Below are positions 3,329-20,814 of a DNA stretch of 25,370 nucleotides, in pieces. The stretch covers positions 1 to 25,370 of the forward strand of contig NZ_RIZI01000159.1 in assembly GCF_003721225.1 (NCBI RefSeq), in the 5' to 3' direction. The position numbers were made by a program, and so were the translations under genes. The stretch's first letter is position 1. Each line of letters starts with the position of its first letter. The DNA is from Acidithiobacillus sulfuriphilus (GTDB lineage Bacteria; Pseudomonadota; Gammaproteobacteria; Acidithiobacillales; Acidithiobacillaceae). The notes under the pieces are model-generated. The model worked only from the letters and a program-made list of their open reading frames with translations, searched no databases and was not told the origin of the DNA.

Positions 3329-3748
3329 ATGGCAATATATCTTGGGGGTGGCTCATATATTGGAAAAGATTCTTTAATATATGATGCTATCCTGTTTGTC
3401 TGGATATATATTGGCTGTTTAGTATTTTTCAGCCTGTTCACAAAAGAAGCGATTACCAAGAGGGTTGCGCTAGATCTAATAATCCTCGCATCTGTTGTGG
3501 CAATGTCAAAAGGATTTCTCCTTTCACAGATATTTTGCAGTGGATCGCTATGCGTTGCTCCACTGCTCGCAGCAAACGGTGAACACCTTTTGTTTACCAC
3601 GTTTTATGATTCTTTGCTGCCATTCATATTTTTTATGGTATACTCTTTTAGCAATATTTCGTCATGGCTTCGGGGGCTTGCATTTATAGCGTCTGTCATA
3701 TTCATTTACAATATTCTTAATTTAAACTTTATTTTTATGTTGATATGA
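3329..3748 (+). CDS. Small multi-pass membrane protein, possible orphan immunity protein
   Basis: This is a protein of about 139 residues that I do not recognise by family. It has four hydrophobic stretches that look like membrane helices (around residues 20-45, 50-72, 90-110 and 115-138). The frame is open from inside the insertion sequence, but the ATG at 3329 has AGGAG 13 bases upstream. Before it the frame reads D-A-A-G-R, an Rhs YD-repeat style peptide directly at the IS edge. Base composition is markedly AT-rich compared with the IS. Its stop overlaps the ATG of the next Rhs fragment by four bases. A position just after an Rhs tail suggests an immunity protein whose toxin was lost when the IS inserted; that is inference. 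Confidence 0.55.
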   Translation: MAIYLGGGSYIGKDSLIYDAILFVWIYIGCLVFFSLFTKEAITKRVALDLIILASVVAMSKGFLLSQIFCSGSLCVAPLLAANGEHLLFTTFYDSLLPFIFFMVYSFSNISSWLRGLAFIASVIFIYNILNLNFIFMLI

Positions 3749-4248
3749 ATAATATTACGGCAAATAAAATATCAGGAATCGGGGTCTGGGGAGCAATGGA
3801 ACAGCGAACCGACTTGCTGATGCCCCTTGTGGGCAAGGCACCGGATTACCGTTATGCTGGGCTGTTCTTCCACGAACAGAGTGGGTTGTATCTAGCGGTG
3901 TTCCGGGCTTACGATCCGAGTGGGGGACGGTGGATTAGCCGAGATCCCATTGGGGAAGAAGGCGGGGTGAATTTGTATGGTTATTCCAAAAACGATCCAA
4001 CAAACGCCATCGACCCGCTCGGAAATGTTAGCCAGATAGTAAAAAGTGTTGGTTTATCATTGACTTTCGATATTCTCGCTGGAATGCTGTTATTTTTCTG
4101 CCCAGAGTGCGAAGGTGGCGCCCTAATTATTGAACTTGGGGGACAACTTTTGGATGCAGCAGAAGATTATTACAAAGGACGGCATGACATTGAAACCAAC
4201 AGGAAAATGAGAGAAAAAGTGTTGGCTCAAGTATGTAAGCAGTTATAG
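3745..4248 (+). CDS. Orphan Rhs core terminus with variable C-terminal tip (candidate toxin)
   Basis: Residues about 30-93 are the conserved end of the RHS-repeat-associated core: YRYAGLFFHEQSGLYL, RAYDPSGGRWISRDPIG, GGVNLYGYSKNDP and the closing DPLG. In full-length Rhs proteins DPLG marks the autoproteolytic junction with a variable toxin tip. Here about 74 residues follow (NVSQIVKSVGLSLTFDILAG onwards). They contain one hydrophobic segment and a CPEC pair, then a charged helical end. I do not recognise the tip family. The N-terminal thousand or so residues of a complete Rhs protein are missing, so this is a displaced tip, as seen behind main rhs genes. It would act only if recombined onto a full rhs gene or expressed alone. 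A membrane protein gene follows after four bases. Confidence 0.8.
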   Translation: MNNITANKISGIGVWGAMEQRTDLLMPLVGKAPDYRYAGLFFHEQSGLYLAVFRAYDPSGGRWISRDPIGEEGGVNLYGYSKNDPTNAIDPLGNVSQIVKSVGLSLTFDILAGMLLFFCPECEGGALIIELGGQLLDAAEDYYKGRHDIETNRKMREKVLAQVCKQL

Positions 4249-7202: not shown

Positions 7203-7514
7203 TCATTTTTTGCTGTAAGTTGCATCGTGGTCCGGGGCAACGGTTAAAAACCGCAAGTAGTCTCCATCCCGGTAGGCGGTCGCCCTGCGGGATTGCGTGA
7301 TCCGTAGCGAGTAGATGGCAGCAATACCTTTGGGCGGCGTCACACTCAGAATTTTCTCCCATCGCAACCCCTTATCCCGGTAGACCTGATCCCAGGTCAT
7401 TTGCAAAATCTTTCGCAAGGTCTCCAGGGCCGAATGGCGTTCTGGCTTGGGCAAGGCAAGCAGGTTTTCCTGGAATACCGGATTATTCAGGTCCAGACGA
7501 ACCGGGTCACCCAT
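7203..7514 (-). CDS. Type II toxin, small RelE/BrnT-like cytotoxic protein
   Basis: The product is a basic protein of 103 residues with a compact alpha/beta pattern: LDLNNPVFQENLLALPKPER, a helix with LRKILQMTWDQVYRDKGLRW, then strands in IYSLRITQSRRATAYRDGDY and LRFLTVAPDHDATY. The combination of WDQVYRDKGLRWE and R-A-x-A-Y-R-x-G-x-x-L-R is what I know from small toxins encoded beside AbrB-type antitoxins. They are presumed to inhibit translation, but I cannot name the exact family. Its ATG overlaps the antitoxin end by eight bases (ATGGGTGA), so it is translationally coupled. The frame is intact. Confidence 0.75.
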   Translation of the reverse strand: MGDPVRLDLNNPVFQENLLALPKPERHSALETLRKILQMTWDQVYRDKGLRWEKILSVTPPKGIAAIYSLRITQSRRATAYRDGDYLRFLTVAPDHDATYSKK

Positions 7515-7764
7515 GGGTCATTTGACCCAGAGCGTGCTGGGTGTCGGTATCATCCGCCGGATGCGCCGACGCCCAAGCCATAGCACGTTGCAGGTCGCTT
7601 TGCGCTTTTGGCGTGTTCAGCCAAAGCTCATTGTCAGGGATTACCGTCACTGTCCGTACCAACCATACCCCGGGCTCTTGTTCTTCCACGCATACTTGAC
7701 GGCCCGCATACCGTTTGCCAAAAGAAATCTGGCCATTGCTCCCAATCGTTTTAACGTCCTGCAT
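7507..7764 (-). CDS. AbrB/SpoVT-like antitoxin
   Basis: The 85-residue product starts MQDVKTIGSNGQISFGKRYA, a swapped-hairpin AbrB/SpoVT-type DNA-binding start. Strands with VCVEEQEPGVWLVRTVTV and a helical C-terminal tail for toxin binding follow. I chose the ATG at 7764 because ATGGAGG lies just upstream as a ribosome binding site and upstream codons read non-protein-like sequence. It precedes and overlaps the toxin gene, the usual order. Inverted repeats directly upstream suggest autoregulation by the antitoxin or the complex. Confidence 0.75.
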   Translation of the reverse strand: MQDVKTIGSNGQISFGKRYAGRQVCVEEQEPGVWLVRTVTVIPDNELWLNTPKAQSDLQRAMAWASAHPADDTDTQHALGQMTHG

Positions 7765-7779
7765 GATAGCCTCCATGAA

Positions 7780-7807
7780 TGCACTACTGCACATATGCAC
7801 TATAGCA
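7780..7807 (-). promoter_or_regulatory. Putative operator of the toxin-antitoxin operon
   Basis: Two near-identical imperfect palindromes, TGCACTACTGCA (7780-7791) and TGCACTATAGCA (7796-7807), lie 16-43 bases upstream of the antitoxin ATG, with centres 16 bases apart. On the minus strand the second contains TATAGT, a plausible -10 box. Binding there would block transcription, as expected for a self-repressing module. Confidence 0.5.
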
Positions 7808-7827
7808 CAAAAGGATGCACCCCAACT

Positions 7828-8094
7828 AACGCTTTGACCATCCACGCTGATTTTGGCCATCTCCCGCTGCTGGCCCAGCCTTGCAGGCGGCAGCCCTCCA
7901 CGTTACCCAGCACGAAGATGACCGGCCCCGCGTAGGCCAGACGCAGCTTGCGCAAGAGTTCCGTGTAGTATTCCGGCATGGTGTCCACGTCGCCGGCAAG
8001 GATCAGCGCGTCGACAGTGGACAGTGGATAGACCGGTGAGCGTTAAAGATGGATCGAACTCCAGGTGGAGGTCGGAGGCGTAGGTGATGCGCAT
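7828..8094 (-). pseudogene. Chimeric metallophosphoesterase fragment
   Basis: The start MRITYASDLHLEFDPSL carries the first metal motif (D-x-H). The frame is lost at a 7-base tandem duplication (ACAGTGG twice, 8014-8027). Removing one copy restores VDALILAGDVDTMPEYYTEL and the helix leading to VIFVLGN, the place of the GNHE motif. There the histidine is replaced by valine, and the sequence becomes EGCRLQGWAS, copied from the other small phosphoesterase of this window. The last 73 bases (7828-7900) repeat 13029-13102. The result is two phosphoesterase halves fused at short homology, with the C-terminal GHxH motif missing. Confidence 0.75.
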
Positions 8095-8150
8095 TTAGGT
8101 TATCACTACCATTTTTCGTCATACCGACCGCAGGTCGTGCCGATTGCAAA

Positions 8151-8425
8151 TCAGCACGCAATCCGCACATCGACAATCTCCGCGCCGTTATGCTTCCAGC
8201 CGCAGTCTTTCTGGTGGCACAATACGGTCAGGCCTATGTTCAGATCACGCACGCCTTTATCATTGGGCACCGACTGATATGCGCCGGTGTCCAGAAACAC
8301 ATACGAACCCGCCGTCAGCAATTGCGAGCATCCCCCTGCCGGGTCCTGCGAACTGCGGCCGGTGCATCCCGCATCACCGTGATGGTGTGGCCCACATAGG
8401 TCGTGGAGACTTCCCGCACCATCAT
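8151..8425 (-). pseudogene. PPP-family phosphatase C-terminal fragment, frameshifted
   Basis: The minus strand reads MVREVSTTYVGHTITVMRD in one frame. After a shift near 8320-8335 it continues LTAGSYVFLDTGAYQSVP and LNIGLTVLCHQKDCGW. This parallels the end of the intact phosphatase at 14725-15606 (TYVGHTI, HVFLDTGA, LTLFCHQEQQGW), so it is a second, diverged paralogue. The N-terminal two thirds with the GDxHG, GDxVDRG and GNHD motifs are gone. It begins 15 bases after the stop of the vWA-like gene and is followed by the phosphoesterase fragment, the same class order as in the intact operon. Confidence 0.75.
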
Positions 8426-8439
8426 GCAAACTTCGTCAT

Positions 8440-9375
8440 TCAGTGCGTTTCCGGATAGGCCACCGGCTCAACGAGCGCCGGTTCACCGAACTCCATCAGC
8501 TTGCCGTCTGACTTTGCGAAATATTGCCGCCAAAAGTCCTTCAGGTTGATCAGTGCCTGCGGGTCACGGTAGCCATTCCGTGCAGCCAGCGACCCGCTTG
8601 CGGCCGGCGGCATGACGGCGCCGCCCAGCACATACACGGATGCGCCACCGAAATTACCAATCAGGTGGTTCCTTATCGCCTTGCCCATCTCTACCGCGGG
8701 GTTGATGACGCGCACCGTGCCGTTGCCATAGAACGTGGTGACGCTGGAGTTCTCCAGCCCGTCCGTGATAGCGAACAACACCTTTTGAGGGGCTGGATCC
8801 CTTGCAATGGCCGGAGCCACCGTTTTCATCGCCATCATGATGTCCGACTGGTCCAGACTGCCCGTGCTGCTTTCCATTATGGATGCCATGCTGGTGGCCA
8901 CCATCTTCCTGGCGAATCCGTATTGCATGCCAAGACACACGTTCAGATGCCTTGCTGCGACCATGGATGTTGACCCTATGCGGGATGGGGCCAGCGGCTT
9001 TTCGACGATACCCGTATGCACGACCTGCAGGAAATGCCCCTGGGAAAATGCGGAGAACTCGGCGATGACGAACCTAGTTCCGGGCTTCAACATGCGCAAC
9101 GCGTTGTTCACCGCCGATTGCTCCAACGTGGGCGGCAACTTGACTGTTTGGTCCATAAGAATATAGATCAGATGGGTATAGGGCTTTGCCGGTGGCGCGA
9201 TGTGGGTCGCCGCGTAGCAGCTTGGCACATCGTCGACCAATCCAGCCAACGCACTTGCCGGGGCGACCACCAGAAGCGCCGCCACCGCGAACTGAACCAC
9301 TCGCAGGGCTGCCGTCCGCAGGACATGCCCAAAAATGCTGGCACTGAAACTCGGAGTATCATAATGGCTTTCCAT
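8440..9375 (-). CDS. Exported vWA-like protein
   Basis: The ATG at 9375 gives 311 residues, with a ribosome binding site (GGGGGA) before it and the upstream gene ending four bases away. A signal peptide of about 44 residues (LRTAALRVVQFAVAALLVV, cut near ALA-G) sends it across the inner membrane. The mature part has a von Willebrand A-like layout: a first strand LIYILMDQTVKLP, a helix, TRFVIAEFSAFSQGHFLQVV, and KVLFAITDGLENSSVTTFYG with the aspartate of a metal site. The first motif (D-Q-T-V-K) departs from canonical D-x-S-x-S, so metal binding is uncertain. It is last in the envelope trio with the OmpA-like lipoprotein and the membrane protein. Confidence 0.65.
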   Translation of the reverse strand: MESHYDTPSFSASIFGHVLRTAALRVVQFAVAALLVVAPASALAGLVDDVPSCYAATHIAPPAKPYTHLIYILMDQTVKLPPTLEQSAVNNALRMLKPGTRFVIAEFSAFSQGHFLQVVHTGIVEKPLAPSRIGSTSMVAARHLNVCLGMQYGFARKMVATSMASIMESSTGSLDQSDIMMAMKTVAPAIARDPAPQKVLFAITDGLENSSVTTFYGNGTVRVINPAVEMGKAIRNHLIGNFGGASVYVLGGAVMPPAASGSLAARNGYRDPQALINLKDFWRQYFAKSDGKLMEFGEPALVEPVAYPETH

Positions 9376-9379
9376 TTTT

Positions 9380-10936
9380 TCAATCCCCCAATGCGTCGAG
9401 AAGATCTTGAGACAGGCCCGCAGACTCTGTCGCTTTCCGTTTTTCTTTGGCGGTCGCCAATGCCGATTGAAAACGCTCCCGGTCTTTGGGTAAAAGATTC
9501 TGGCCAGACACAAACGACACCCGTTCCTCCCTGGATGGCAAAGACAGAGTTTTCTCCGCCAAAGCGCAAATCTGTTCATCACTCAACCCTACCGCTTCGC
9601 GAGCCGGGCGATTCTCGGGCTGGTCGCTCAAATCGACCGTTTCCCGTGGCGGACGGGCATCGGCTATATACATTTCCATGAAATCGAAAATAGACGGTCG
9701 ATAGGTTGGGTTCATCTTGGACAGGTTGGATCGCAGCGTCGTCATACGCATGGTCGCCCGTTGCGACACCGGCTTAACGACGTGGCCCAGGAAGGTGTCA
9801 TAACTGGGATACCCCTTGGTTTCCTTGTACGCCTGTTCCGCATTTTCCCCGAAGAAACCGTATTTATATCCGGTAACCACGCCCAAAAACTGGGTGAACA
9901 GATAGATCACGCCCAATAGAACGACCCCCACATCATTAGCGCTTTTCTTGTCGCTGATGATAGCATCCGTGGCTTTTTTCTGGGATTGCTGGGCGGCCTG
10001 CGCAACGGCTGCGGGCAGCGGCGTATCCCCTCCCGCGCCGCTTGCCGAGGACGATGAGAACATATTCTGGAAACTCTGCGTCCCGCCTGCCGCCGAGGCG
10101 GAAGACGGCGCCGACATGCCTACGGCCTCGCTGTCCAGGTGTTTGTTCAGCTCGTCGTGGCGATACCAGGTGGACAACACAAAGGCCAAAACAATGAGCG
10201 ATGTTGCGGCAACGATGTTCCCGTACCTCTTTTTGGCGTCGCCCAGCGTATTGATTCCCAGGCGGGCCGCCAGACGGGTCATCGGAGCATTCGATTCATC
10301 CTTGTCCTGGTCCATATCCGGAGAAATGACGCTAATGGCTTCGACGGCCTTATCCTTACCGCCTACAACAAATCCGCCGCGCTGACGGAAATTGGCCGCA
10401 ATGTGAGACACCAGCGAATTGTGATACAAATCATGACCCGCATTGTGCGTGAAAAGCAGGGTGACAACGGCCAGCACAAAGGCCAGCGCAGCGCCGATGA
10501 ACAGTGCGCCATCCGGTGTGATCTCACGGGAAATCAATGGAGCGATCAAGGCGCCCGTGCCGAACGCTTCGGCAACGGTGAGCCCAAAGAGAATGGCCCA
10601 CATCCAGGCGCTCATGGGGCGACGGTCACTTTGCTTCGCGAGCACCAGGTATTTGCGATACCTGTCGAAGCTCTTACGGGAGGTCTCGGGGACACCGTTT
10701 TTGTAATAATCATACAGCGCTTTTTCCACGGGAATCATCGTTCCCGGCGAATCATCATGCTCACCGGTACGTTCATCTCCCCGACTCCACTTCGCCATTT
10801 TTCCCAAAAAGGGCAACCATACCCAAAAATCCTTGCCCAACAGCGAAGTGGTGTAACTGCTCCACACCAGAAATACGATGGAAAGCAGCACCACGGCGGC
10901 GACCACTATTTCAATGACTCGGGACATATCAAACAT
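9380..10936 (-). CDS. Polytopic inner-membrane protein of unknown function
   Basis: The product is 518 residues; AGGAG precedes the ATG by eight bases. Five membrane helices are apparent, at about residues 8-26, 110-132, 143-162, 240-258 and 350-370 (VGVVLLGVIYLFTQFLGVV). The second and third are separated by a short acidic loop. Between helices 4 and 5 is a long Ser/Ala/Gly-rich loop, probably periplasmic. The last 145 residues are soluble, charged and helical, with a proline-rich patch (ADARPPRETVDLSDQPENRP). I recognise no family. It lies 24 bases after the OmpA-like lipoprotein gene and four bases before the exported vWA-like gene. The three may form one envelope-spanning complex. Confidence 0.75.
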   Translation of the reverse strand: MFDMSRVIEIVVAAVVLLSIVFLVWSSYTTSLLGKDFWVWLPFLGKMAKWSRGDERTGEHDDSPGTMIPVEKALYDYYKNGVPETSRKSFDRYRKYLVLAKQSDRRPMSAWMWAILFGLTVAEAFGTGALIAPLISREITPDGALFIGAALAFVLAVVTLLFTHNAGHDLYHNSLVSHIAANFRQRGGFVVGGKDKAVEAISVISPDMDQDKDESNAPMTRLAARLGINTLGDAKKRYGNIVAATSLIVLAFVLSTWYRHDELNKHLDSEAVGMSAPSSASAAGGTQSFQNMFSSSSASGAGGDTPLPAAVAQAAQQSQKKATDAIISDKKSANDVGVVLLGVIYLFTQFLGVVTGYKYGFFGENAEQAYKETKGYPSYDTFLGHVVKPVSQRATMRMTTLRSNLSKMNPTYRPSIFDFMEMYIADARPPRETVDLSDQPENRPAREAVGLSDEQICALAEKTLSLPSREERVSFVSGQNLLPKDRERFQSALATAKEKRKATESAGLSQDLLDALGD

Positions 10937-10960: not shown

Positions 10961-12544
10961 TCAATGTTGCAGGCTGAAAATGGGCTGGGACATGTATTTC
11001 TTCCCATTCAAGGCGTAATACAGTCGAGAGCCGCCCTGATATTCGCCTGTGGGGACCACCATATCGATGCACTTGGCCGGACCGTTGACGAATACCCGAT
11101 ACAGCGTTTTGTTCTGGCCACGGTAGACATTGACCGGCACCTTGCCGCTAAACACGGGAGCCTGCCGTGTATTCCCATGGTAATCTTTGTAGATCAGGAC
11201 GTCGGGACGCGGCACATAGGTCCCCGCCCCCTTGAGGACGTTGGCGTGGGTGATGGCCACCAGATTTTTCCCCGCATGGGCCACCCACACCGCGTCATAA
11301 AAGCCGGAGACGTAATCCCTGGGCGGAAGCGTCTGGCCGTTGGCCAGATTGCGCACGGCGGTCACAGGGTGCGGATGGCTGGACAGACACGCCGGGACGA
11401 TCACCGGAGTATCCGCCTGGGCGGAAGAAATCAACCCGAACATGGAATGGGATGCCGGAGCGGCACCTAGGTCCACCGGGATGCCATTCCCATACAGGGG
11501 CGTCCCACCAAAACCCGCGCCAGCGCCCATATGCGCCACGGTGTGAACCGCCTTGACTGGGACGGGTGCCGGAACCGGATGACGCACAGCAGGATGGGCT
11601 TTCGCTTGCACTGGGGAGGATGCGGGCGCATTGGGCTGCGGCGCAAAATCGCTGGCGTTCACCGTCCGTCGCTGCACATAATCCTGCAAATCGGATACGG
11701 TGGGCACATCCACGATCTGCACCCGGTTGTTTTCCTTTTCGCCACGAGCGGTATGCACCGGAGCGATGGGCAGAGCGTCGCCAGCGCCCTGATAATAGAT
11801 ATTACCCGCCGGAACTCCGTTTTCGGCGAAAACGGTGGCCACCGCACGGGCGCGCTGCTGTGACAACTTCGCGGCGCTCATGCCGGATATGGCCTGATCC
11901 ACCAAGTTGGTATGCCCAACGATCAGTATCTTGTGGTTCACAGCCGCCAGTCGCTGCTCCGGCGTCGCGTTGGCGGGGAGATGCTTTTCCACAACCGCAG
12001 GCGCATATTGCCGCGCGATCTGCGAGAGATAGGCTTGCGCCTGCGGTGTGATGGAGGCCGTCCCAGGGGTAAATTCGCCTCCCTTGTTTTCCACCTGCAC
12101 ATCCAGACCGATAGCGGTGGACGGCTTTTGCGCTGGGTCCGTCGGGGCGACGCCCAGCTTGGCGGACGTGATCCTGGCGCTGGCGATCTTTAGGTCATGC
12201 GCCTTGGCGATTTTGTATAGCTCACAGCGTCGCGCGTCCAGGAAATGCCCTACCAGGAAACCGCCACCGACGCCAACGACTGCGCCGACGACCGCACCCT
12301 CCACGCCATGGGTAAGCCCGCCTACAAGGGCACCTGTCACCCCGCCCAGAACCATGCCGATGTTCCGGTCGTTGTTGGAGCAGGGATTGGGGCTGTCGAA
12401 GATGCTAGAAAGCGTGTTTTCACTCTGCGAAGCGCCGCCAGGGCTACCCGGAGGGGCGGACACCGTGGCACACCCGGTCATGGTGGATACAATAAGCCCC
12501 ATAGCGATCGCCCTGGGAACATAGGAAGTTTTCTTCTTTTTCAA
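10961..12544 (-). CDS. OmpA-family lipoprotein with glycine zipper
   Basis: I place the start at a TTG (12544) because AAGGAG stands seven bases before it and a lipoprotein signal begins at once: KKKKTSYVPRAIAMGLIVST, then M-T-G-C. This gives 527 residues. After the lipid-attached cysteine come a short linker and a glycine zipper (GMVLGGVTGALVGG and GAVVGAVVGVGGGFLVG), typical of membrane-embedded hairpins. An OmpA-like peptidoglycan-binding domain follows, with KILIVGHTN, KLSQQRARAVATVFAENGV and NNRVQIV. A Pro/Ala linker and a C-terminal domain of about 180 residues that I do not recognise complete it. It should anchor the outer membrane to peptidoglycan and could hold the two following gene products. 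Confidence 0.8.
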   Translation of the reverse strand: MKKKKTSYVPRAIAMGLIVSTMTGCATVSAPPGSPGGASQSENTLSSIFDSPNPCSNNDRNIGMVLGGVTGALVGGLTHGVEGAVVGAVVGVGGGFLVGHFLDARRCELYKIAKAHDLKIASARITSAKLGVAPTDPAQKPSTAIGLDVQVENKGGEFTPGTASITPQAQAYLSQIARQYAPAVVEKHLPANATPEQRLAAVNHKILIVGHTNLVDQAISGMSAAKLSQQRARAVATVFAENGVPAGNIYYQGAGDALPIAPVHTARGEKENNRVQIVDVPTVSDLQDYVQRRTVNASDFAPQPNAPASSPVQAKAHPAVRHPVPAPVPVKAVHTVAHMGAGAGFGGTPLYGNGIPVDLGAAPASHSMFGLISSAQADTPVIVPACLSSHPHPVTAVRNLANGQTLPPRDYVSGFYDAVWVAHAGKNLVAITHANVLKGAGTYVPRPDVLIYKDYHGNTRQAPVFSGKVPVNVYRGQNKTLYRVFVNGPAKCIDMVVPTGEYQGGSRLYYALNGKKYMSQPIFSLQH

Positions 12545-12602
12545 GGAACATCTCCTTTGCGGCACTTGTTTCGTGGAATGGAACGGAACTATCCGGTTAT
12601 TG

Positions 12603-12761
12603 TTATGGCGTACTTCCCCCATCGCCCGGAATAATATGCGCTGCGGGCGCATCCGCCAACATCTCCGCCCGCACGAAGGATTCCCCACCCGCAGCGCGCC
12701 GGGACAACGCTTTCGAGTAGCTGCTATATATGCTCATCAAGAGTTCCTCATCCATATCCAT
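12603..12761 (-). CDS. Small 52-residue protein, unknown
   Basis: The minus strand encodes MDMDEELLMSIYSSYSKALS, then an Arg/Gly/Ala stretch and AEMLADAPAAHIIPGDGG, with a TAA 59 bases before the lipoprotein start. The N terminus is a plausible amphipathic helix. No strong ribosome binding site is visible (AAAAGAAA before the ATG) and the family is unknown. It fills most of the gap between the broken phosphoesterase and the lipoprotein, in the same direction. Confidence 0.4.
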   Translation of the reverse strand: MDMDEELLMSIYSSYSKALSRRAAGGESFVRAEMLADAPAAHIIPGDGGSTP

Positions 12762-12794: not shown

Positions 12795-13359
12795 CTAATC
12801 CCAGTCTCGCAACCGCAAACTTCCACGCCGTTTTTTCTCGGATTCGGCATCAAAAAGTGCCATGGCACCCAGAATTTCCGCCATCTGAATAGGCTTCCCG
12901 CCCCAAACATCGGCACTCACCTCCATGGAGCCTGGCATCGGCTGCAGGTTGCCATGCACATGGCCATACAAATGCACCGTGCCTTTCCACATGCCAGGCC
13001 ATTCCCGCATCGGGTAGTGGCAGAGAAAAACGCTTTGACCATCCACGTTGATTTTGGCCATCTCTTGCATGCTGGCCCAGCCTTACAGGCGGCAGCCCTC
13101 CATACCCGTGGTCCGGTCGTGATTGCTGACAATCAGATACTTGGTGCCGTGCAGCTTTTTGAGCAGGCCGTTGACGGTCTCCACTGGACGCATAGAAAAA
13201 TCCCCCCAGGGGGTAGACCACATCACCGGGGCTCACAACGCTGTTCCAGGCATCCATCAACGCACGGTCCATCTGTGCGCCGTCCTGGAAGGGGCGCTTG
13301 CCATGCCGGATGATATTGTCGTGTCCGAAATGACTGTCACTGGTAAAAAAGGTGCGCAT
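12795..13359 (-). pseudogene. Small calcineurin-like metallophosphoesterase, doubly inactivated
   Basis: The start MRTFFTSDSHFGHDNIIRHG holds the first metal motif (D-S-H-F-G-H), and GDVVYPLG contains the second aspartate. An extra base in a six-G run (13202-13207 on the plus strand) shifts the frame. The continuation reads DFSMRPVETVNGLLKKLHGT, then YLIVSNHD in the GNHD position. At 13083-13085 a TAA replaces the CAA (Q) found in the partial copy at 7828-7900. After it the frame continues with MAKINVDGQSVFLCHYP, HLYGHVHGN and the C terminus. All metal motifs survive across the frames, so inactivation is recent, or the errors are in the sequence. It follows the kinase gene by 15 bases. Confidence 0.85.
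13029..13102. repeat. 74-base direct repeat, partner at 7828-7900
   Basis: The segment from aacgctttgaccatccac to ggcggcagccctcca occurs here and at 7828-7900 with a few substitutions and one missing base in the left copy. It encodes the EGCRL(Q)GWAS region of the small phosphoesterase. It shows that the left chimeric fragment was built from sequence related to this gene. The copies are in direct orientation, about 5.2 kb apart, on either side of the envelope trio. Confidence 0.8.
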
Positions 13360-13374
13360 ATTCCCCTGAAATCT

Positions 13375-14703
13375 TCATCGGTACAGAGCGTCCATATCCA
13401 CGCCCATATTCGCCCCCAGGGCCACATCACGCAGAATTTCCGCCCACCAGGCAGAGGCTCCGTGCTTTGCCGGAGGATGACGCCCCTCTCTATTTCCAAG
13501 AGTAAGGTCGGCTGATAGTCGGCCTGCAGGTTCAGGTCCACAGTGGCGCGGTTATCGTAAACGCGCAGGCGCCGCGCAAAATGCGCCACCAGTGCGGCGT
13601 GGGTAAAACCGCCGAGCAGATTGCGTCAATCTGGGCCTCTGGAATATCTACCCGATCACTGCGTAGGGCACGGGATTGCACCCGCTGGACCAGCGTATCC
13701 AGATCATGAACACCCACATAATCCAGATCCACTACAGCCCCTGCCCGAATGCTTTCAAGTACCTGATCGAATCGGCCCGCAAGGGAGAAAGTGGTTTCCA
13801 CCAGCAGGTTTTGACGGGCATCCAAACCCCGCCGCCAGTCCGCATTGGAGAGCAGATAGGCCACCTGCAATTCTGGCAGGGGTTCATTGGCGGCGGGAAT
13901 CAGGCCCATGGCCCGATCTGCGTCATCTTCGTCTGGCAGCCAATGCCGGATGGCCTCACGGGCAATAGTGACAAGGCGTGCGCGATCCTTCGGAAGCGAC
14001 GGCAGATAACGATCCACATCGACCCATGCGCTTTCCGCAATGCCCAACTGCCGGCGCAGAGGCGCAGAGAGGAGCGTTTTCCCGGAACCGATACTGCCGG
14101 CGAGATAATGCAAAACCGGTGCATGCCCGTCGGCACGATGACAGTTGGTCCGCGCTTCAGCCATTTCTTCCGCATAGCGGGCCAGTCGGATAGCCACGAA
14201 ACGCCGGTAGGTTGACGCATCCTGTTTGGGATCGGCGGGCAGCCTGCGTGCGGCGAGAGATCCTTTAGGTGGCCATCCCCTTTGTTTGAATTTGGCTTCC
14301 TGCAACTGTTGAAAGGCGCCGGGCGTTAGTCCGCCGTTGGCGTGCTCCGGACAGGCCACATGCCAGTAGGCGCCACTGACCAATAAGGTACCCGGCAAAC
14401 CGCAGTTCTCACAGATCCGACGTGAGCGGTCACAATAATCCTCCACGATCTGAAACAGGCCATGTTTCTGCGCGTCTGTCAGTTTCGCGTCGTAGCTAAG
14501 TAATAGCGTAGCGTTCCGAATTTCTGTTTGATCTGGGTGACGTGGATACGAATGCCGTTCTCCTGGCAGTAGGTGTCTACGGCCTGAGACAAGGCGCGGA
14601 GTAGTGGATACCAGCCGTCTTCGCACCAGAAATGGCTTTCCTGGTTGTCGCTGTAGAGTGCTGGATAATCCCGCTGCAAGGCGTGTTCCAGGGCGATGTC
14701 CAT
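13375..14703 (-). pseudogene. Zeta-toxin-like P-loop kinase with zinc-ribbon-like N-terminal domain, three frameshifts
   Basis: The start MDIALEHALQRDYPALYS has AGGAG upstream. The N-terminal domain has DGWYPLLRALSQAVDTYC and QIKQKFGTLRYYL; the frame shifts near 14494-14505 and continues with SYDAKLTDAQKHGLFQIVED. A C-x2-C / C-x2-H set (RRICENCGLPG, ACPEH) suggests a zinc site. The kinase part has the P-loop GSIGSGKT, WVDVDRYLP, the zeta-type LLVETTFSLAGRFDQVLESI, and YVGVHDLDTLVQRVQSRA with DIPEAQI. A second shift (13610-13630) leads to FTHAALVAHFARRLRVYDN, the zeta-family end. A third (13450-13458) leads to a stop at 13375. Each shift fits loss of one base. Zeta-type enzymes phosphorylate nucleotide sugars; some relatives act on other substrates, so the target here is unknown. 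Confidence 0.8.
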
Positions 14704-14724
14704 GTGTTTTTCTCCTGTATCAAT

Positions 14725-15606
14725 TTAGATCGCGGGGGCATTTCCCAGCGTTACGCCCTCCATGTCGGTTGCTGTGGCCATCCACCCCTGCTGTTCCTGA
14801 TGGCAAAACAGTGTCAAGCCCTGATCGCGGTATCGCTCAGCCTGATCCAGATGGGCAGCACCCGTATCCAGAAACACATGTCCAGCGACCTGCAACAAGC
14901 GGCCTTCCCGGGGCGGGGTGATGGTGTGCCCCACATAGGTACGGGACAACGCGGCCGGAACAATGGGGTTCTCGTGGGACAGGGCATAACGCAAGCTCCG
15001 TCCCCACAGCAGATGATCTTCCCAAGTCCCCGTAGCGTCATAGCCGATGACCTGATGCGGCTCCAGCCAGCGGGATGCGTGTCCTCTGCGAGAGTGGCGT
15101 CCGTTCCAGCACACCGCCACGCCATCCTCGCGTTCTGCCGCCAGTTCCGCGTGCAGTACCTGAAACCGCCCTGCGGGAGCCGTATTCTCAGCGTCGACGA
15201 TGCGTACCAAAGGCACCTGAGACAGCGCTGACCGCCACCGTTCACACTGTTCTTCATCCATCCGATAATGGCGGAACCAGTCCCATCCGCCATTGCGGGT
15301 CGCGGTCCGTTGGGCTTCCTCCCGCCGCATCTCCCGCAAATGACCCAGATTCAACGTGGCCAGCAGCATGGCGTCGTGGTTGCCCAGCACCGGATAAAAC
15401 CAGGGCGCTTCCAGCAGATCCAGCGCCCCGGCACTGTTCGGGCCGCGATCCACCAGGTCACCCACGCTGAACAGGCGATCCAGGTCATAATCGAAGGCGA
15501 CATGATCCATGAGCCTGCGCAGGACATCGGGGTGACCGTGAAGATCCCCCACGATGAAATCCCGGCCCTGAAGATTGGCCGGATGGGCTATGACACGCGG
15601 GTTCAT
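14725..15606 (-). CDS. PPP-family protein phosphatase (PrpA-like)
   Basis: The 293-residue product keeps all metal and phosphate motifs of the PPP family: GDLHGH (20-25), GDLVDRG (49-55), GNHD (75-78), LHAEL (151-155) and YVGHTI (224-229). The fold should hydrolyse phosphoserine/threonine or related phosphoesters with two metal ions in the cytoplasm. Bacterial relatives include PrpA/PrpB and ApaH-like enzymes, so a dinucleotide substrate is possible. Its ATG overlaps the stop of the upstream phosphoesterase (ATGA). The kinase gene follows after 21 bases. A kinase and a phosphatase side by side suggest opposing or sequential reactions on one substrate. Confidence 0.85.
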   Translation of the reverse strand: MNPRVIAHPANLQGRDFIVGDLHGHPDVLRRLMDHVAFDYDLDRLFSVGDLVDRGPNSAGALDLLEAPWFYPVLGNHDAMLLATLNLGHLREMRREEAQRTATRNGGWDWFRHYRMDEEQCERWRSALSQVPLVRIVDAENTAPAGRFQVLHAELAAEREDGVAVCWNGRHSRRGHASRWLEPHQVIGYDATGTWEDHLLWGRSLRYALSHENPIVPAALSRTYVGHTITPPREGRLLQVAGHVFLDTGAAHLDQAERYRDQGLTLFCHQEQQGWMATATDMEGVTLGNAPAI

Positions 15607-16460
15607 AAAACCTGCTCCTCCAGTTCAATCACCTGATCCAACTGCACGCCGGTACCTTCCCTCGGGTATCCGAAGGCGTTGGACAGCACCCGCACCGCAC
15701 CGATACGGTAATCCACCGCATGATGGGTATGGCCGTGCATCCATAGATGTACGCCAAGGTCACCAAAGCGCTGCACGGTTTCTTCCAATCGGCTGGCGTA
15801 GGCACCGGACAGATCATCCTGCCGGAAGGATTTGTAGATGGACGCCCATGCCGGTGCGTGGTGGGTGATCACGACCTTGTGGCCGGCCCAGGGCTGTGCA
15901 ATGGATGCCTCCAGCCAAACCTTACTGGCCAGATGCAGCTCCAGGGTATCCCGCGGCAAAAAACGCCGGGCACCCCCATGGCACCGTATCCGCTTATGAT
16001 CCTGCATGGTCTCCTGTGCCGCCCGCATGGAATAGGGGTCGCCGCCATCAAAATCAGACCACAGGGTGGCTCCGAAAAAGCGGATGTTGCCGATGTCCAC
16101 GCTTTGACTTTCCAGCAGAGTACACCGCGCCATCAGATCCTCCGGTAGATGTTTGGCCAGGCCCTCCCGCCACTTTTCCGGTGCCCGTTCGACGGATAAA
16201 CCCCAATAGTCATGGTTACCCAATATCGCCACGATATGCGGGAAGGGGGTTGCCGCGATCTTGAGCCAGTCGGCCAGCTTTTTGGGGGTGCCGAAGTCTC
16301 CCGCCAGCACGAGAATGCTGTCCCGGTCCGTCGGCAAAGGCGCCAGACGGACCGTTTGGGGCGGGTTCATGTCCAGATGAATATCCGACAGGAGGCGCAG
16401 AAAGGGCGGCGGATGGTCCGTCACGGCGAGCGTATCCTCCTCCGACAGTTCCCGTGTCAT
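15603..16460 (-). CDS. Calcineurin-like metallophosphoesterase
   Basis: The 285-residue product has the complete set of metallophosphoesterase motifs: LLSDIHLD (23-30), LAGDFG (52-57), GNHDYW (81-86), ITHHAP (198-203) and MHGHTHH (241-247). The motif spacing is that of cytoplasmic Icc/YfcE-like phosphodiesterases rather than of PPP phosphatases. There is no signal peptide. Its start overlaps the ATPase stop and its stop overlaps the next start, both as ATGA, so the three proteins should be made in fixed proportion. The substrate cannot be inferred from sequence; phosphodiesters in nucleic acids or cyclic nucleotides are possible. Confidence 0.88.
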   Translation of the reverse strand: MTRELSEEDTLAVTDHPPPFLRLLSDIHLDMNPPQTVRLAPLPTDRDSILVLAGDFGTPKKLADWLKIAATPFPHIVAILGNHDYWGLSVERAPEKWREGLAKHLPEDLMARCTLLESQSVDIGNIRFFGATLWSDFDGGDPYSMRAAQETMQDHKRIRCHGGARRFLPRDTLELHLASKVWLEASIAQPWAGHKVVITHHAPAWASIYKSFRQDDLSGAYASRLEETVQRFGDLGVHLWMHGHTHHAVDYRIGAVRVLSNAFGYPREGTGVQLDQVIELEEQVL

Positions 16461-18037
16461 TGCAACCAGTCTCCATTTCTGCCCGACGGCCGATCCGCCA
16501 TGGCCTGCATTTCCAGCAGTCGATACACCACTCCGCGCAGATCGCGCATGGACCGGGGGTTACGGGCAAAAGCCCGCTGCAGACGGTCCCTGACCGTGGC
16601 ATCCAGAGTGGGCAAGACAACCGTGTCCACGCCGTACTCCCGGGCGACATCCCGCCGCACGTTCTCCAGGATGCGATCAAAATCCTCCGCCTGGGGAAGC
16701 CCCACCCGGATGATCTCCCAACGGGAGCGCAACGGTCCCGGCAAATCCTCCAGACTGTTTGCCGTCGCCACCCAACTGATGGCGGAATAATCGACCTCGC
16801 CGAGGAGAAACTCGTCCAGCACCCTGCTGCTGCTGGCGGGTTCCAGAAACGTCAGCAAGGTCTCCCAGACCCGCCCGTTCTGGCGCCCCAGACCAACCTT
16901 GTCGATCTCGTCCAAGACCACCAAAGGGTTGGGGCACTGCCGCTCCAACATCATTTCCACCAGAAAGCCCGGACGGGCGCTGCTCCAGCCGCGCGCGGTG
17001 CCTTTCAGGAGCATATTGTCGCTGGCGCCGGCCAGCGGCACAAAGAGCGTCGGAGCGCCCATGGTTTCCCCCAACCGCCGCAGAAATCGGGTCTTGCCCG
17101 TACCGGCCGGTCCCAGAAGGAGCAGAGGCCGCAGTCGCAGACTGTCCGCGCCCAGGCGCTGGGCCATGACCTGCTGCCGTTCCAGCGCACCGATCGCCGC
17201 TTCCATCCAGGGAAACTCCTGCCGCAGCAACTTCGCCCAGGAAAGACTCCGTGGCCATGCCGCCAGCGGCAGAGGGCGCAGGAGGGGACGAAAACGCTCC
17301 AGACCGCGACGGTCATCCTCCTTCTGGGGCGACTGCATGGATTGCAGCACCACCCGCCGGGAACGCATGTCCTCCTCCGGGATTTCCGCTTTGCCCAGCA
17401 CGCGCTCCAGCACACACTGGAGCGGAAAGAGGCGAAGCGGCACCTTGGTTCCATTTTCTTGGGTAAATCGGTCGACCTCCCGGGCCAAGTCCGGGTCCTC
17501 CAGCCGCGCCACGGCCTGCAAGCCCATCTCCAGCGTCAGTGATTTGCATTGTCCGCTGCGATCCTGGCCCTCCATCCAGAAATCGGCCTTGTTGCGCAGT
17601 TGCGCGCTCCAGAAAAAAAAGGCATCTCGCAGGAAGGTCCCGTAAGCCTTTGGCCGTAGGCGCGCTGCCAGCACCAGGACATAGATCTCCCCGATCTGCG
17701 AGCCGAGCTGCGCCGCCACCGTCGCCCACTGCCAGGCGAATTCCTCCGGCGGGCTCCAGCAGCCCTCTTTCTGTACCGCTTCGGCCAAGTCCCCCGATGG
17801 AGAGCAGGCGAACACCATTCCGAGGGTAAAACGCCGGGTTTTTTCCAGGACCTGGGTGGGCCAATCCTGGGGAAGGAGTCCGGAATACCCGCTGGCGGCC
17901 ACGCGCACAGGAGGAATCCCTTGGGTAACCCAGAGGGGTACCGATTTGCCATTTTTCAGCATGCTCTCGCAAAGCGCATCCAGGCAATCCACCAGACGGG
18001 GCAGACGCTCTTCGAGGTCGGTGTACCAAACGAACAT
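16457..18037 (-). CDS. Lon-like AAA+ ATPase without protease domain
   Basis: The product is 526 residues; the ATG at 18037 follows AAAGGAG by seven bases. Residues 1-270 form a mostly helical N-terminal region that I do not recognise. The AAA+ module follows: LLLLGPAGTGKT (Walker A, 305-316), LVVLDEIDKVG (Walker B, 372-382), VATANSLEDLP (sensor 1, 423-433) and PLRSRWEII with candidate arginine fingers. A C-terminal helical lid contains NPRSMRDLRGVVYRLLE. The order and wording of these motifs are closest to Lon (DEIDK, T-A-N, R-x-E/W-I), but no Ser-Lys protease domain follows. It is probably a remodelling ATPase and heads the operon. Confidence 0.88.
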   Translation of the reverse strand: MFVWYTDLEERLPRLVDCLDALCESMLKNGKSVPLWVTQGIPPVRVAASGYSGLLPQDWPTQVLEKTRRFTLGMVFACSPSGDLAEAVQKEGCWSPPEEFAWQWATVAAQLGSQIGEIYVLVLAARLRPKAYGTFLRDAFFFWSAQLRNKADFWMEGQDRSGQCKSLTLEMGLQAVARLEDPDLAREVDRFTQENGTKVPLRLFPLQCVLERVLGKAEIPEEDMRSRRVVLQSMQSPQKEDDRRGLERFRPLLRPLPLAAWPRSLSWAKLLRQEFPWMEAAIGALERQQVMAQRLGADSLRLRPLLLLGPAGTGKTRFLRRLGETMGAPTLFVPLAGASDNMLLKGTARGWSSARPGFLVEMMLERQCPNPLVVLDEIDKVGLGRQNGRVWETLLTFLEPASSSRVLDEFLLGEVDYSAISWVATANSLEDLPGPLRSRWEIIRVGLPQAEDFDRILENVRRDVAREYGVDTVVLPTLDATVRDRLQRAFARNPRSMRDLRGVVYRLLEMQAMADRPSGRNGDWLQ

Positions 18038-18051
18038 TTCCGGCTCCTTTC

Positions 18052-18070
18052 TGTGGACACCTGGTCCACA
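18052..18070. promoter_or_regulatory. Perfect inverted repeat, putative operator
   Basis: TGTGGAC-ACCTG-GTCCACA is a perfect 7+5+7 inverted repeat. It lies directly downstream of the minus-strand -10 box and 15 bases before the ATPase ATG. A third TGTGGAC stands alone at 18137-18143, close to the divergent HTH gene. Placement at the predicted transcription start suggests a repressor site, perhaps for the divergent HTH protein. Confidence 0.65.
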
Positions 18071-18078
18071 TTGGCAGC

Positions 18079-18107
18079 ATATTACTACTATAGTGCAGAC
18101 TTGTCAA
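18079..18107 (-). promoter_or_regulatory. Sigma-70-type promoter for the ATPase/phosphoesterase operon
   Basis: On the minus strand TTGACA (18107-18102), a 17-base spacer and TAATAT (18084-18079) form a good promoter. Transcription would start near 18072, giving a leader of about 35 bases. TTGTCA (18101-18106) on the plus strand overlaps the same bases, but I see no convincing -10 box for the divergent gene. Confidence 0.6.
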
Positions 18108-18197
18108 TTATCCTGTACTATATGTCTATCAAGGGATGTGGACTTGCCGCATGGCGGGCTTCATCCTTACTTCCTATCTGCACACAGGAGTTTCACC

Positions 18198-19349
18198 ATG
18201 CCGCGCCCCGCGCTCTCTTATTCCGTAAGTCTCGAGCCCCTATCCGATTTCTATACGCTATCGCCCTGGAGCCTGGCGGAGATGGCCCGCCGCTTCGGAC
18301 TGGGCCGCTCCAATCTGATGGGCTTGTTACGGGGTGAACGCACCATCAGCAATGACAAGCTGATGGCGTTATTGCGCTGGTCCGGTCTGGAGGTGGTGGA
18401 CGGCACATTGCGACTGGCCCCCGGGCTGCATGTATGGCGCGTCGCTTCGGTCAAACATCTGGAAGCCTTTGCACGCCTCCCCGCAGGCCTGCAGCCGGAG
18501 GATGCGTGGGATCTGGTCACCGAAGCCGATCGTCCCCGGCGCGAGTGGATTCATGTGTTGAGCCAACCCTGCGACGCGCGGCAGGTCCTGTTATCCGTAC
18601 GCCCCGATTATTATCCCCTTCTACGCGACCACCGGCCGGGCCTGGGACGGCCTCACAGGCTGCACCATTTTGCTGGTGGAAGAAAATATGACGAGATCGC
18701 GGGTCAGCTCGGAGGAGAGCATCTCTACATTCCCTCTGCGGAAGGGACCCGGCTTTTCACAGACCCAGAGGCCCAAAATATGGGCAGGGCTCCGGAAATA
18801 AACGAATGGGCGCGTTGGTTGCGGCAGTCTCTCCACGTGGATACCAGCCCTTGGTTACTGCCCGGATTGGCGGCGGAGGAGACGCAAGGCGGAGGATCAA
18901 CCCCGCCGGCGACATCGGTTCACCCTGAAGCCTGTCAGCATGCCTGGACGGCACTGACCCACCGGCTCGATACCGGTGGAACGCATGCCGATATTTGCGA
19001 CGTCCCGGTTTTTTCTCTGGGCGATATTCATCAATATCCTGCAGGAATGGTCCGCCTGGACCGGTCTTTTCTGGGCGAGAAGGCTATGGAGTATGGCAAA
19101 GCGCAGCGCTTGCGCCTTTACAAGGACGAAAACACCGGGGTGATGTGGCTCGTTGTGATGAATGGGCAGTCCCCTTGCGGCCTGCCGGACGCATTTTCCT
19201 CCGACAGGATTGGCGATTTCGCCCTTCTGCTACAAGGAGAATCGCTCCTGGTTGACAGGATCTCCGCCCCTGGACACATTCTGGGTCGGGTTCTGAGCCG
19301 CATGGCAATTCATGAAACGGACGCTCACCAGATCGCCACTCCGGAGTAG
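18198..19349 (+). CDS. HTH protein, likely regulator of the divergent operon
   Basis: The ATG at 18198 has AGGAG eight bases upstream and gives 383 residues; the frame is open further left, but that region holds the promoter. Residues about 23-62 (WSLAEMARRFGLGRSNLMGL, then GERTISNDKLMALLRW) look like a Cro/C1-type helix-turn-helix. The remaining 320 residues contain Arg/Pro-rich and Gly-rich stretches and a C-terminal alpha/beta part (YGKAQRLRLYKDENTGVMWL). I do not recognise a ligand-binding family. The gene is divergent from the ATPase operon across a 160-base region with an inverted repeat. By position it is the regulator or sensor of that operon. Confidence 0.75.
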   Translation: MPRPALSYSVSLEPLSDFYTLSPWSLAEMARRFGLGRSNLMGLLRGERTISNDKLMALLRWSGLEVVDGTLRLAPGLHVWRVASVKHLEAFARLPAGLQPEDAWDLVTEADRPRREWIHVLSQPCDARQVLLSVRPDYYPLLRDHRPGLGRPHRLHHFAGGRKYDEIAGQLGGEHLYIPSAEGTRLFTDPEAQNMGRAPEINEWARWLRQSLHVDTSPWLLPGLAAEETQGGGSTPPATSVHPEACQHAWTALTHRLDTGGTHADICDVPVFSLGDIHQYPAGMVRLDRSFLGEKAMEYGKAQRLRLYKDENTGVMWLVVMNGQSPCGLPDAFSSDRIGDFALLLQGESLLVDRISAPGHILGRVLSRMAIHETDAHQIATPE

Positions 19350-19386
19350 TCCATAGGGAGTGCGGCTATCCGGCGAAGCAGGTCGT

Positions 19387-19401
19387 ATTGACAATGTCAA
19401 T
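19387..19401. promoter_or_regulatory. Palindromic operator of the brnTA operon
   Basis: ATTGACA-A-TGTCAAT is a perfect 7+1+7 palindrome. Its left arm contains the -35 hexamer, so bound repressor would exclude RNA polymerase. BrnTA operons are known to be repressed by their own proteins. Confidence 0.6.
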
Positions 19402-19415
19402 CTTTGCCCTATGCT
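19388..19415 (+). promoter_or_regulatory. Promoter of the brnTA operon
   Basis: TTGACA (19388-19393), a 16-base spacer and TATGCT (19410-19415) lie just upstream of the toxin ATG at 19423. The leader would be very short or absent, which fits the lack of a clear ribosome binding site before that ATG. Confidence 0.55.
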
Positions 19416-19422
19416 GACCCTT

Positions 19423-19723
19423 ATGGATATTCATTACGAACTGAACGGACTTTACTTTTGTCTGGGACGACAGGAAAGCCGCCAGCAATCCCAGAAAACA
19501 TGACGGGGTGACGTTCGAGGAAGGGGCTACGGTGTTTTTCGATCCCTTCTTCCGCCTGGTGGACGCCAGTAGCGCTCATGAGGCCAGAGATGCGGCCATT
19601 GGCTCCAGCGCGGCGGGGCACCTGCTGTTTATAGTACATATTGAGATCGAGGACGAATCCATCCGCATTATTTCGGCCCGCAAACTGACCAATGATGAGA
19701 GGCAAGATTATGAGTATTCCTGA
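19423..19723 (+). pseudogene. brnT: BrnT-family toxin, frameshifted
   Basis: The start MDIHYELNGLYF is followed by an extra T in a four-T run (19456-19459). Without it the frame reads VWDDRKAASNPRKHDGVTFE, then a loop and LLFIVHIEIEDESIRIISAR and ERQDYEYS. This is the full BrnT layout: WDxxKxxxNxxKHGVxFExA at the start and RIISARxxxxxERxxYE at the end. BrnT is a ribonuclease-like toxin (DUF497). As read, translation stops after 26 residues. The start and stop of the gene and its partner remain in place, so it was lost recently or the base is a sequencing error. Confidence 0.85.
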
Positions 19724-20000
19724 ACGTATCAAAACCCGTCTGAACAAGGAGCGCCCCATGACCACGGTCACGCTGCGGATACCGGTAGACGTGGTCGAAT
19801 CCCTGAAAGAAATCGCACCACAGCGCGGATTTTCTGGCTATCAGCCATTGCTCAAGGCGTATGTGAGCGAGGGGCTACGGAAGGATGAAGCGCGGTACAC
19901 CTTCGGGGCCACCGCCCGGCTGATTGCTGCCCTGAGAAAGCGCGGTGTCCCTCAAGAGGTACTGGATGAGGCCGTGAAGGATGAGGCCATATCCGCGTGA
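19710..20000 (+). CDS. BrnA-like antitoxin
   Basis: The 96-residue product starts MSIPERIKTRLNKERPMTTV. The TLRIPVDVVESLKEIAPQRG segment looks like a ribbon-helix-helix DNA-binding part, and GFSGYQPLLKAYVSEGLRKD is typical of antitoxins beside BrnT. The C-terminal half is helical (RLIAALRKRGVPQEVLDEAV). It overlaps the toxin stop by 14 bases; an ATG at 19692 would add six residues. The frame is intact although the toxin is broken. It should neutralise BrnT and bind the palindrome upstream. Confidence 0.8.
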   Translation: MSIPERIKTRLNKERPMTTVTLRIPVDVVESLKEIAPQRGFSGYQPLLKAYVSEGLRKDEARYTFGATARLIAALRKRGVPQEVLDEAVKDEAISA

Positions 20001-20075
20001 TTGCAGGTTCATCCCCGGCGGCAGATGCCACCGTCTCTTGCGCATACAAATGGATAAGGTGATCCCGGAAGGAAG

Positions 20076-20104: not shown

Positions 20105-20137
20105 GCATGCAACGACGGCATGTTAATGGGGTGGCTT

Positions 20138-20392
20138 ATGGCGATGCTGACTATACGGAACCTTCCTGAAGAAGTGCGGCGTGCATTGCGCATGCGTGCC
20201 GCACAGCATGGGCGAAGCACTGAGGCTGAGGTCCGGTCGATATTAGAAGAAGCAGTGAAGCCACAGGGGCGGGTGAAGCTGGGGTCACTGCTGACTGAGA
20301 TTGGCCGTCGCGCCGATCTGACCGATGAGGACCTCGCGGTCTTCGAGCGGATGCGCGACAAAACTCCTGTAGAGCCGGTACGTTTTGAATGA
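20138..20392 (+). CDS. FitA/VapB-type ribbon-helix-helix antitoxin
   Basis: The 84-residue product begins MAMLTIRNLPEEVRRALRMR and continues with AAQHGRSTEAEVRSILEEAV. This is the FitA-like pattern: a strand with T-I-R-N-L-P and helices containing A-x-x-x-G-R-S-x-E-A-E-x-R. I chose ATG 20138 over 20120 because the family starts next to the T-I-R-N strand and GGGGTGG lies before it. The C-terminal tail would wrap around the toxin. The stop overlaps the toxin start by four bases (ATGA). Confidence 0.85.
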   Translation: MAMLTIRNLPEEVRRALRMRAAQHGRSTEAEVRSILEEAVKPQGRVKLGSLLTEIGRRADLTDEDLAVFERMRDKTPVEPVRFE

Positions 20393-20814
20393 TTCTTCTC
20401 GATACCAACGTCATTTCGGAACCCCTGCGAAAGGCGCCCGAGATAGGCGTTGTCACCTGGATCGATGCGCAACCCATTGAGACGCTTTATCTTTCAACGG
20501 TCACCATTGCTGAGTTACGGCTGGGCATTGAAATGCTGCCGACTGGCCGGCGCCGGGATATCCTCCATGAGAGTCTGGAAGACCGTGTGCTGCCCATGTT
20601 TGTCGGGCGGGTGCTGGTATTTGACCTGGCTGCCTCGCAGGCTTACGCGCGTTTAATGGCAAAATCTCGGGGTGCCGGTTTTGCCATTGGCAGGGCGGAT
20701 GGTTATATCGCAGCGATTGCTGCCGCCAATAAGATGACCGTAGCCACGAGGGATACTGGCCCGTTCCTGTCTGCAGGGATAACTGTCATCAATCCATGGG
20801 CATTATCGGCGTAA
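20389..20814 (+). CDS. PIN-domain toxin, FitB/VapC type
   Basis: The 141-residue product has the PIN-domain acidic residues in their usual places: MILLDTNVISE (first Asp), TIAELRLGIE (Glu), and the later aspartates in IGRADGYIAAIAA and ATRDTGPF. These bind Mg2+ for RNA cleavage. The closing G-I-T-V-I-N-P-W is typical of FitB-like proteins. The frame and active-site residues are intact, so this module is probably functional. Confidence 0.88.
   Translation: MILLDTNVISEPLRKAPEIGVVTWIDAQPIETLYLSTVTIAELRLGIEMLPTGRRRDILHESLEDRVLPMFVGRVLVFDLAASQAYARLMAKSRGAGFAIGRADGYIAAIAAANKMTVATRDTGPFLSAGITVINPWALSA

Follow-up and report, generated by a model that had tools for sequence, protein, structure and literature searches.

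Bacterial Pnkp carries a kinase, a phosphatase and a ligase in one protein, and RNA ends are repaired by bacterial Pnkp/Hen1 as well as by T4 Pnkp. The zeta-type kinase fold is known for sugar-nucleotide phosphorylation and is not one of protein kinases, and the motors of the Lon family are hexameric. As for the control of immune operons, CapH+CapP, CapW/BrxR and CapK+CapS are named in an excerpt of PMC13373217 'controllers of associated/adjacent pathways' of such operons, and CapK-CapS is presented there as a repressor of immune operons under phosphorylation control. We have analysed an operon of Acidithiobacillus sulfuriphilus, located on one complete contig of 25,370 bases (G000:C67; this whole stretch is called the window below). 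It consists of five genes, all on the minus strand, for a Lon-like AAA+ ATPase without protease, a calcineurin-like phosphoesterase (MPE_B), a phosphatase of the PPP/ApaH type (PPP), a zeta-type P-loop kinase with a Zn-ribbon-like domain and a second, small phosphoesterase (MPE_E), and a regulator gene (REG) stands beside them. The preliminary description of this DNA had reported five genes in one direction, and every one of them was recovered; REG at 18198-19349, an operator-like site, the swapping of heads and the fragments downstream had escaped it.

The reading which we prefer, with a probability of about 0.45, is that of a modular conflict or stress operon of mobile elements or defence islands, which would be silenced by REG and released by the ATPase, and whose enzymes would act on RNA ends or nucleotide signals. 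Judged by sequence comparison, at least three types of ATPase head stand beside similar bodies: type 1 in the window, L036, L006 and L037, type 2 in L026, L027 and L028 (45-49% to type 1), and type 3 in L114 and L116 (30-38% to the other types). The window PPP has 90% identity both to the PPP of L026 and to that of L114, the window MPE_B 88% and 90%, respectively; between pairs of different head type PPP reaches 73-98% and MPE_B 77-96%, one comparison of barely overlapping fragments being excluded from these ranges. L027 is without the first MPE_B. In all three comparisons across types (L026, L114, L116) the strong DNA homology starts at window base 16388, just inside MPE_B, and the sole stretch aligned above this base is 388 columns of the ATPase (68%, to L026). 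Within type 1 the alignment of the window with L036 is unbroken from 14828 to 20044, through the ATPase and REG. Since the break is common across types and the alignment is continuous within type 1, there is a strong case that recombination moves head and body each as one block.

The REG gene (plus strand) codes for 383 amino acids with an XRE-type helix-turn-helix (HTH), a middle domain and a C-terminal domain whose predicted fold may resemble that of phage 186 CI and LexA-type repressors. Its relatives fall into 20 clusters, and all five that bear an organism name are from Acidithiobacillus. Because none of the columns of residues 265-372 that are invariant or nearly so in 23 sequences is a Ser or a Lys, REG probably does not cleave itself, and we have rejected it as a self-cleaving LexA/lambda-CI repressor with a Ser-Lys dyad. 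The proposed operator of REG is a 30-base-pair (bp) dyad, TAGTACA-N16-TGCACTA (18091-18120, minus strand), which lies across the -35 box (TTGACA) in the promoter of the ATPase (TTGACA-17-TAATAT). The 7-16-7 geometry is common to ten loci, four of them (window, L006, L036, L037) closely related, and the arms match at 3-7 of 7 positions, with 7/7 in L025. A matrix built on these ten loci additionally detected the ATPase promoter of L028 and, in L026, another site beside REG, and gave zero matches in 20 shuffles of six loci. Among the 31 genomes of the order the dyad pattern with at most one mismatch was found 8 times, in 8 genomes and always upstream of the ATPase, and the reversed pattern 0 times; the pattern was derived from these same loci, and the informative part is the absence of sites elsewhere. 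In L030, L032, L033 and L034 REG is present and no dyad site was detected.

The ATPase (16457-18037, minus strand) matches PF00004 (E 3e-12), and an alignment of 15 sequences shows no variation in the columns of its P-loop, Walker B motif, sensor and arginine. It had been described as Lon-like and free of a protease, which was borne out: the NCBIfam lon model covers only residues 305-446 of 526, with 83.6 bits against a cut-off of 608, and the protein was rejected as a Lon protease since this alignment leaves no S16 protease domain. Residues 8-218 form an all-helical N-terminal region, and the closest named relatives are again from Acidithiobacillus.

From these parts the following course of events can be proposed. 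REG, as a phage-repressor-like HTH protein, would silence the promoter of the ATPase operon by binding to the dyad across the -35 box; the proteaseless ATPase with its helical, sensor-like N-terminal region would probably remodel REG or strip it off the DNA, the trigger being phage infection or damaged RNA or DNA; and the body enzymes would take phosphates off, put them on and trim them, RNA ends or nucleotide signals being the most likely substrates. The repression step has support in the sequence, while the binding of REG to the dyad, the action of the ATPase on REG, the activity and substrate of the enzymes, the trigger and an anti-phage effect are what we infer. REG-ATPase pairs were also observed apart from this setting: a second pair, in tandem and without body genes, stands in the same genome (G000:C91, L033), and G013 and G014 carry tandem pairs related to it (see also L032 and L034). 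On plasmids of Klebsiella, Raoultella and Aeromonas (L042:8243-10684, L128, L129, the head neighbourhoods of which are near-identical), with type I restriction genes close by, and in one class-level genome (L076:421-2825) a related ATPase is divergent to a different HTH gene.

According to the preliminary description the five genes would be a chance assembly if relatives of the ATPase were not found beside these enzymes elsewhere. Of the 19 ATPase loci of the order, 14 proved to have body genes (phosphoesterase, kinase or exonuclease) at a distance of no more than 6 kb, and 12 to have PPP; leaving aside the two loci to which PPP had led, the figures are 12/17 and 10/17. These loci share ancestry and hence are not independent. 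The gene cluster is therefore genuine. No body genes are near the ATPases of L024, L025, L032, L033 and L034, where the contig of L034 stops 188 bases past its ATPase; by eye, L024 and L025 stand among transporter-like genes. Counted from the other side, PPP occurs in 23 places in the 31 genomes, 12 with an ATPase within 6 kb and 9 without one in the stretch examined (among these L115, where the contig ends); 2 are outside this count.

As to the expectation that all five genes co-occur in a conserved order, the first half stood only in the sense that body genes are near the ATPase; the full set is rare and its order varies. The body at its fullest would be MPE_B - PPP - Zn-ribbon/zeta kinase - MPE_E - (optional OmpA-G-H) - MPE_B2 - 3'-5' exoribonuclease (EXO), and the fullest one found is that of L026 (ATPase - MPE_B - PPP - kinase - MPE_E in two frames - OmpA - G - H - MPE_B2 - EXO). 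We have observed kinase - MPE_E - MPE_B2 - EXO in L124, MPE_B - PPP - MPE_B2 - EXO in L115, and ATPase - PPP - MPE_E - MPE_B-type gene - EXO in L029; MPE_E is on the opposite strand in L027, L028 and L031, and PPP is divergent in L030, so the gene order is not universal. Computation of dN/dS gave 0.12-0.37 in all 14 gene pairs compared, showing that the operon genes are under purifying selection.

In the window MPE_B (15603-16460) and PPP (14725-15606), are both on the minus strand and both match PF00149; MPE_B is joined to the ATPase on one side and to PPP on the other by ATGA overlaps, and both overlaps noted earlier were verified. The nearest NCBIfam models of PPP are protein-serine/threonine phosphatases and ApaH, all far below the cut-offs; as PPP appears about equally close to ApaH and to protein phosphatases, nucleotide signals are still a possible substrate. 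The kinase gene (about 13257-14703, minus strand) is a remnant spread over three open reading frame (ORF) pieces (14703-14479, 14626-13532, 13589-13257), and that of MPE_E (12795-13359, minus strand) is in two pieces, with an intact version in a relative. Thus the zeta-type kinase with its zinc-ribbon-like half, and likewise the second phosphoesterase, are present as had been described, but neither is intact. PF06414 (Zeta toxin) is matched marginally, at 24.3 by the window piece and 22.5 by the L026 kinase against a cut-off of 22.3. Intact kinases of about 443 amino acids, in a single frame and with the P-loop kept, are in L026, L124 and L027, with dN/dS of 0.24-0.28; an intact kinase was found in 3 of the 31 genomes (PPP is in 20), and the matches in G011, G017 and G009 are partial only. 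EXO is an Rv2179c-like 3'-5' exoribonuclease (PF16473, E 1.7e-38 for the L115 protein).

Between MPE_E and the downstream end of the operon, all on the minus strand, lies the OmpA-G-H module: F (10961-12688), a glycine-zipper/OmpA lipoprotein gene, G (9380-10936), by eye a membrane protein, and H (8440-9375, start approximate), by eye only secreted and vWA-like, with no Pfam match. It is a separate inserted three-gene module, and we have rejected it as part of the core: it is also found on Paraburkholderia, Acidiphilium and Pantoea plasmids (L038, L039, L040) with no ATPase or body genes in the stretches examined, it was found in only 2 of the 31 genomes, and the gap from MPE_E to MPE_B2 measures 14 bp in L124, where L026 has about 4.35 kb. 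Its likeness to Zorya is limited to a generic OmpA-domain match to ZorB3 (8e-6). Behind it stand the pieces of a decayed cassette (7829-8429), namely a 3' piece of another PPP gene (8151-8429), a fragment of MPE_B2, a second MPE_B-type gene (7902-8094), and a 67-bp fragment with 97% identity to part of the L026 MPE_E (7829-7895), all on the minus strand, which put the downstream end at about 7.8 kb. An ORF at 7507-7860 starts with an apparent MPE_E remnant followed by unrelated sequence, and seems to be a chimeric reading frame produced by decay.

Related sets recur outside the order, including plasmids of other proteobacteria, as the searches have shown. Among 20 plasmid ATPase loci, selected non-randomly from 130 and 127 records, six (L133, L135, L137, L138, L140, L141) carry a gene of the MPE_B, MPE_E or Zn-ribbon/kinase type no more than 4 kb away, and in L043 a body-type gene is 4.8 kb away. 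Body-type matches numbered 7 in 155 kb near the ATPases and 2 in 136 kb far from them, a contrast that is weak when taken alone. A search of 7.3 Gb of plasmids for MPE_B gave only 131 places (tblastn, E 1e-5), and four lie beside these ATPases (profile, E 1e-2), two counts that rest on different yardsticks; two of the four, L137 and the query L135 itself, stand in the best 40 of 113 records. Sphaerotilus has HTH - ATPase - MPE - MPE. Rhodoferax (L133) has the ATPase, a fusion of the kinase gene's Zn-ribbon-like domain to HAD_SAK_2 (8966-9892; RNA repair, E 1.3e-30) in place of the zeta kinase, a small ORF which is exonuclease-like by eye, and a phosphoesterase. The homology of the Zn-ribbon is modest, as only ten columns are invariant among six sequences. 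The class-wide ATPase search, whose threshold let in ordinary Lon (345/369 genomes) and from which we kept E <1e-48 and open frames below 700 amino acids, gave at least five places outside the order (L045-L049; longer stretches L072-L076); in these five genomes an ATPase-PPP overlap occurs once (L072) and a Zn-ribbon-like domain beside the ATPase once (L075). Because of the exoribonuclease and the HAD_SAK_2 fusion RNA ends are the favoured candidate substrate, and the RNA-end or nucleotide chemistry put forward in the preliminary description has gained indirect support.

A defence setting had been suggested as well. PADLOC was applied to 18 defence-looking proteins chosen by eye at ten loci, and 17 matched, L131:14199-16319 giving none at the thresholds used. 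BREX A/B/C stand near L031, type I restriction genes near L028, L073, L042, L128 and L129, SIR2 near L027 and L124, Mrr/PDC-S02 near L027, type I-E Cas near L114 and a type IIG enzyme near L131; this proximity is suggestive only.

These neighbours also argue against the strongest of the alternatives, which we consider rather unlikely: that the body is the nucleotide clean-up kit of a mobile element, a counter-defence in which the ApaH-like PPP, the calcineurin enzymes and the exonuclease would destroy host alarm nucleotides or ADP-ribose derivatives, with the HTH-ATPase pair as the element's repressor switch. The resemblance of PPP to ApaH, the phage-repressor-like C-terminal domain of REG and the plasmid loci with body-type genes would suit it, as would the phosphodiesterases predicted as counter-nucleotide weapons of jumbo phages in the accessible portion of a survey (PMC7824862). 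Viral contigs speak against it too: a scan of them for close relatives of PPP found none, and among the best seven of at least 27 viral ATPase loci, two of them of the size of whole Lon, MPE_B is beside the ATPase in one (L147). A phage origin was rejected as well: the ATPase query gave nine phage records, aligned over 25-34% of its length, and the kinase query one, through its N-terminal domain.

It is improbable that the operon is a protein phosphorylation circuit, in which the kinase and PPP would act on REG or the ATPase and the small phosphoesterases would be accessory. The kinase does not have a protein kinase fold, and it is intact in far fewer genomes than PPP is present; in its favour are the protein phosphatases among the sub-threshold models nearest to PPP and the precedent of the phosphorylation-controlled repressor CapS, as the excerpt of PMC13373217 has it. 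A toxin-antitoxin-like module, where the zeta-type kinase or the exoribonuclease would be toxic, the phosphoesterases or REG would restrain it and kinase breakage would reflect its cost, has a similarly small chance. It would account for the marginal Zeta_toxin match and the broken or partial kinases, but the intact kinases are under purifying selection, L114, L115 and L116 carry MPE_B and PPP without the kinase in the stretches examined (L115 and L116 being cut by contig ends), and no epsilon antitoxin was noticed when the kinase neighbours were read, without a dedicated search. Chance assembly of unrelated genes is hardly credible: parts do occur alone, as the nine PPP places without ATPase and the three plasmids with OmpA-G-H show, but against this stands the co-occurrence in the order and on plasmids of other classes.

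Elsewhere in the window, by eye, a group II intron-type reverse transcriptase/maturase (1042-2574) stands beside insertion-sequence fragments, an Rhs core-like fragment (3745-4248) has small membrane-protein-like ORFs behind it, and a VapBC-like toxin-antitoxin pair is at 20120-20814.

Comparing the preferred reading, a REG-silenced and ATPase-released operon, with described systems, we have found none of the anti-phage systems catalogued in PADLOC (2023) that the gene set would match strongly: ten window proteins gave weak or partial matches only (PDC-S10 3e-9, ZorB3 8e-6, BrxF 3e-3). That to the candidate PDC-S10 involves MPE_B residues 48-137 and is a partial match to a single candidate gene, not to the set. 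Among open-licence PMC papers the gene set was not described in the matches listed, which is weak evidence; the body is thus a phosphate-processing enzyme set for which no named system was found in the literature searched. With Pnkp/Hen1 and T4 Pnkp it shares the chemistry of a P-loop kinase and a calcineurin-fold phosphatase, but here the proteins are separate, the kinase is zeta-type and no ligase was noticed; membership in bacterial Pnkp failed, as PPP scored 16.5 bits against a TIGR04075 cut-off of 750 and the other nine scanned proteins, including the L026 kinase, had no match. The kinase is like Zeta/PezT (PF06414) by its marginal family match and, in intact copies, its P-loop, and differs by the fused Zn-ribbon-like domain. 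The ATPase is like LonA in the sequence and predicted fold of its AAA+ domain, and differs by the lack of the protease. REG may be likened to 186 CI and LexA-type repressors by its HTH and the predicted fold of its C-terminal domain; unlike them, it has a long middle domain and no conserved Ser/Lys in the C-domain.

The arrangement, in which a repressor with or without an activating partner stands next to its operon and one type of controller precedes operons of different kinds, resembles that of the Cap controllers as far as the excerpt of PMC13373217 describes them; in this operon a Lon-like AAA+ ATPase takes the place of the peptidase, WYL domain or GHKL kinase, and a DNA-damage response is not known for this operon. 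All three were rejected as identities, since the partner matches AAA/P-loop families only (against CapH+CapP), Pfam matched no WYL domain in REG of the window, L026, L029 or L033 (against CapW/BrxR), and neither the ATPase nor REG has a GHKL kinase or STAS-wHTH Pfam match (against CapK+CapS). What is new compared with these systems are the three divergent regulator-ATPase heads before similar bodies, with three comparisons breaking at the one base 16388, the dyad matched in 31 genomes only upstream of the ATPase, and the additions in relatives of EXO and, in one case, a HAD "RNA repair" domain. It is conceivable, if doubtful, that they amount to a fourth kind of immune-operon controller, in which a proteaseless Lon-like AAA+ sensor would drive the release of a non-cleaving phage-type repressor; this exchangeable head would switch on a new effector of several enzymes (phosphatases, zeta-type kinase, exoribonuclease) acting on RNA ends, as a defence against phage or to mend the RNA damage that phage inflict. 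The classification of such controllers is only now under way, and if a head of repressor and AAA+ protein does recombine with its operon at one constant base, this would be a new coupling of sensing to effectors.

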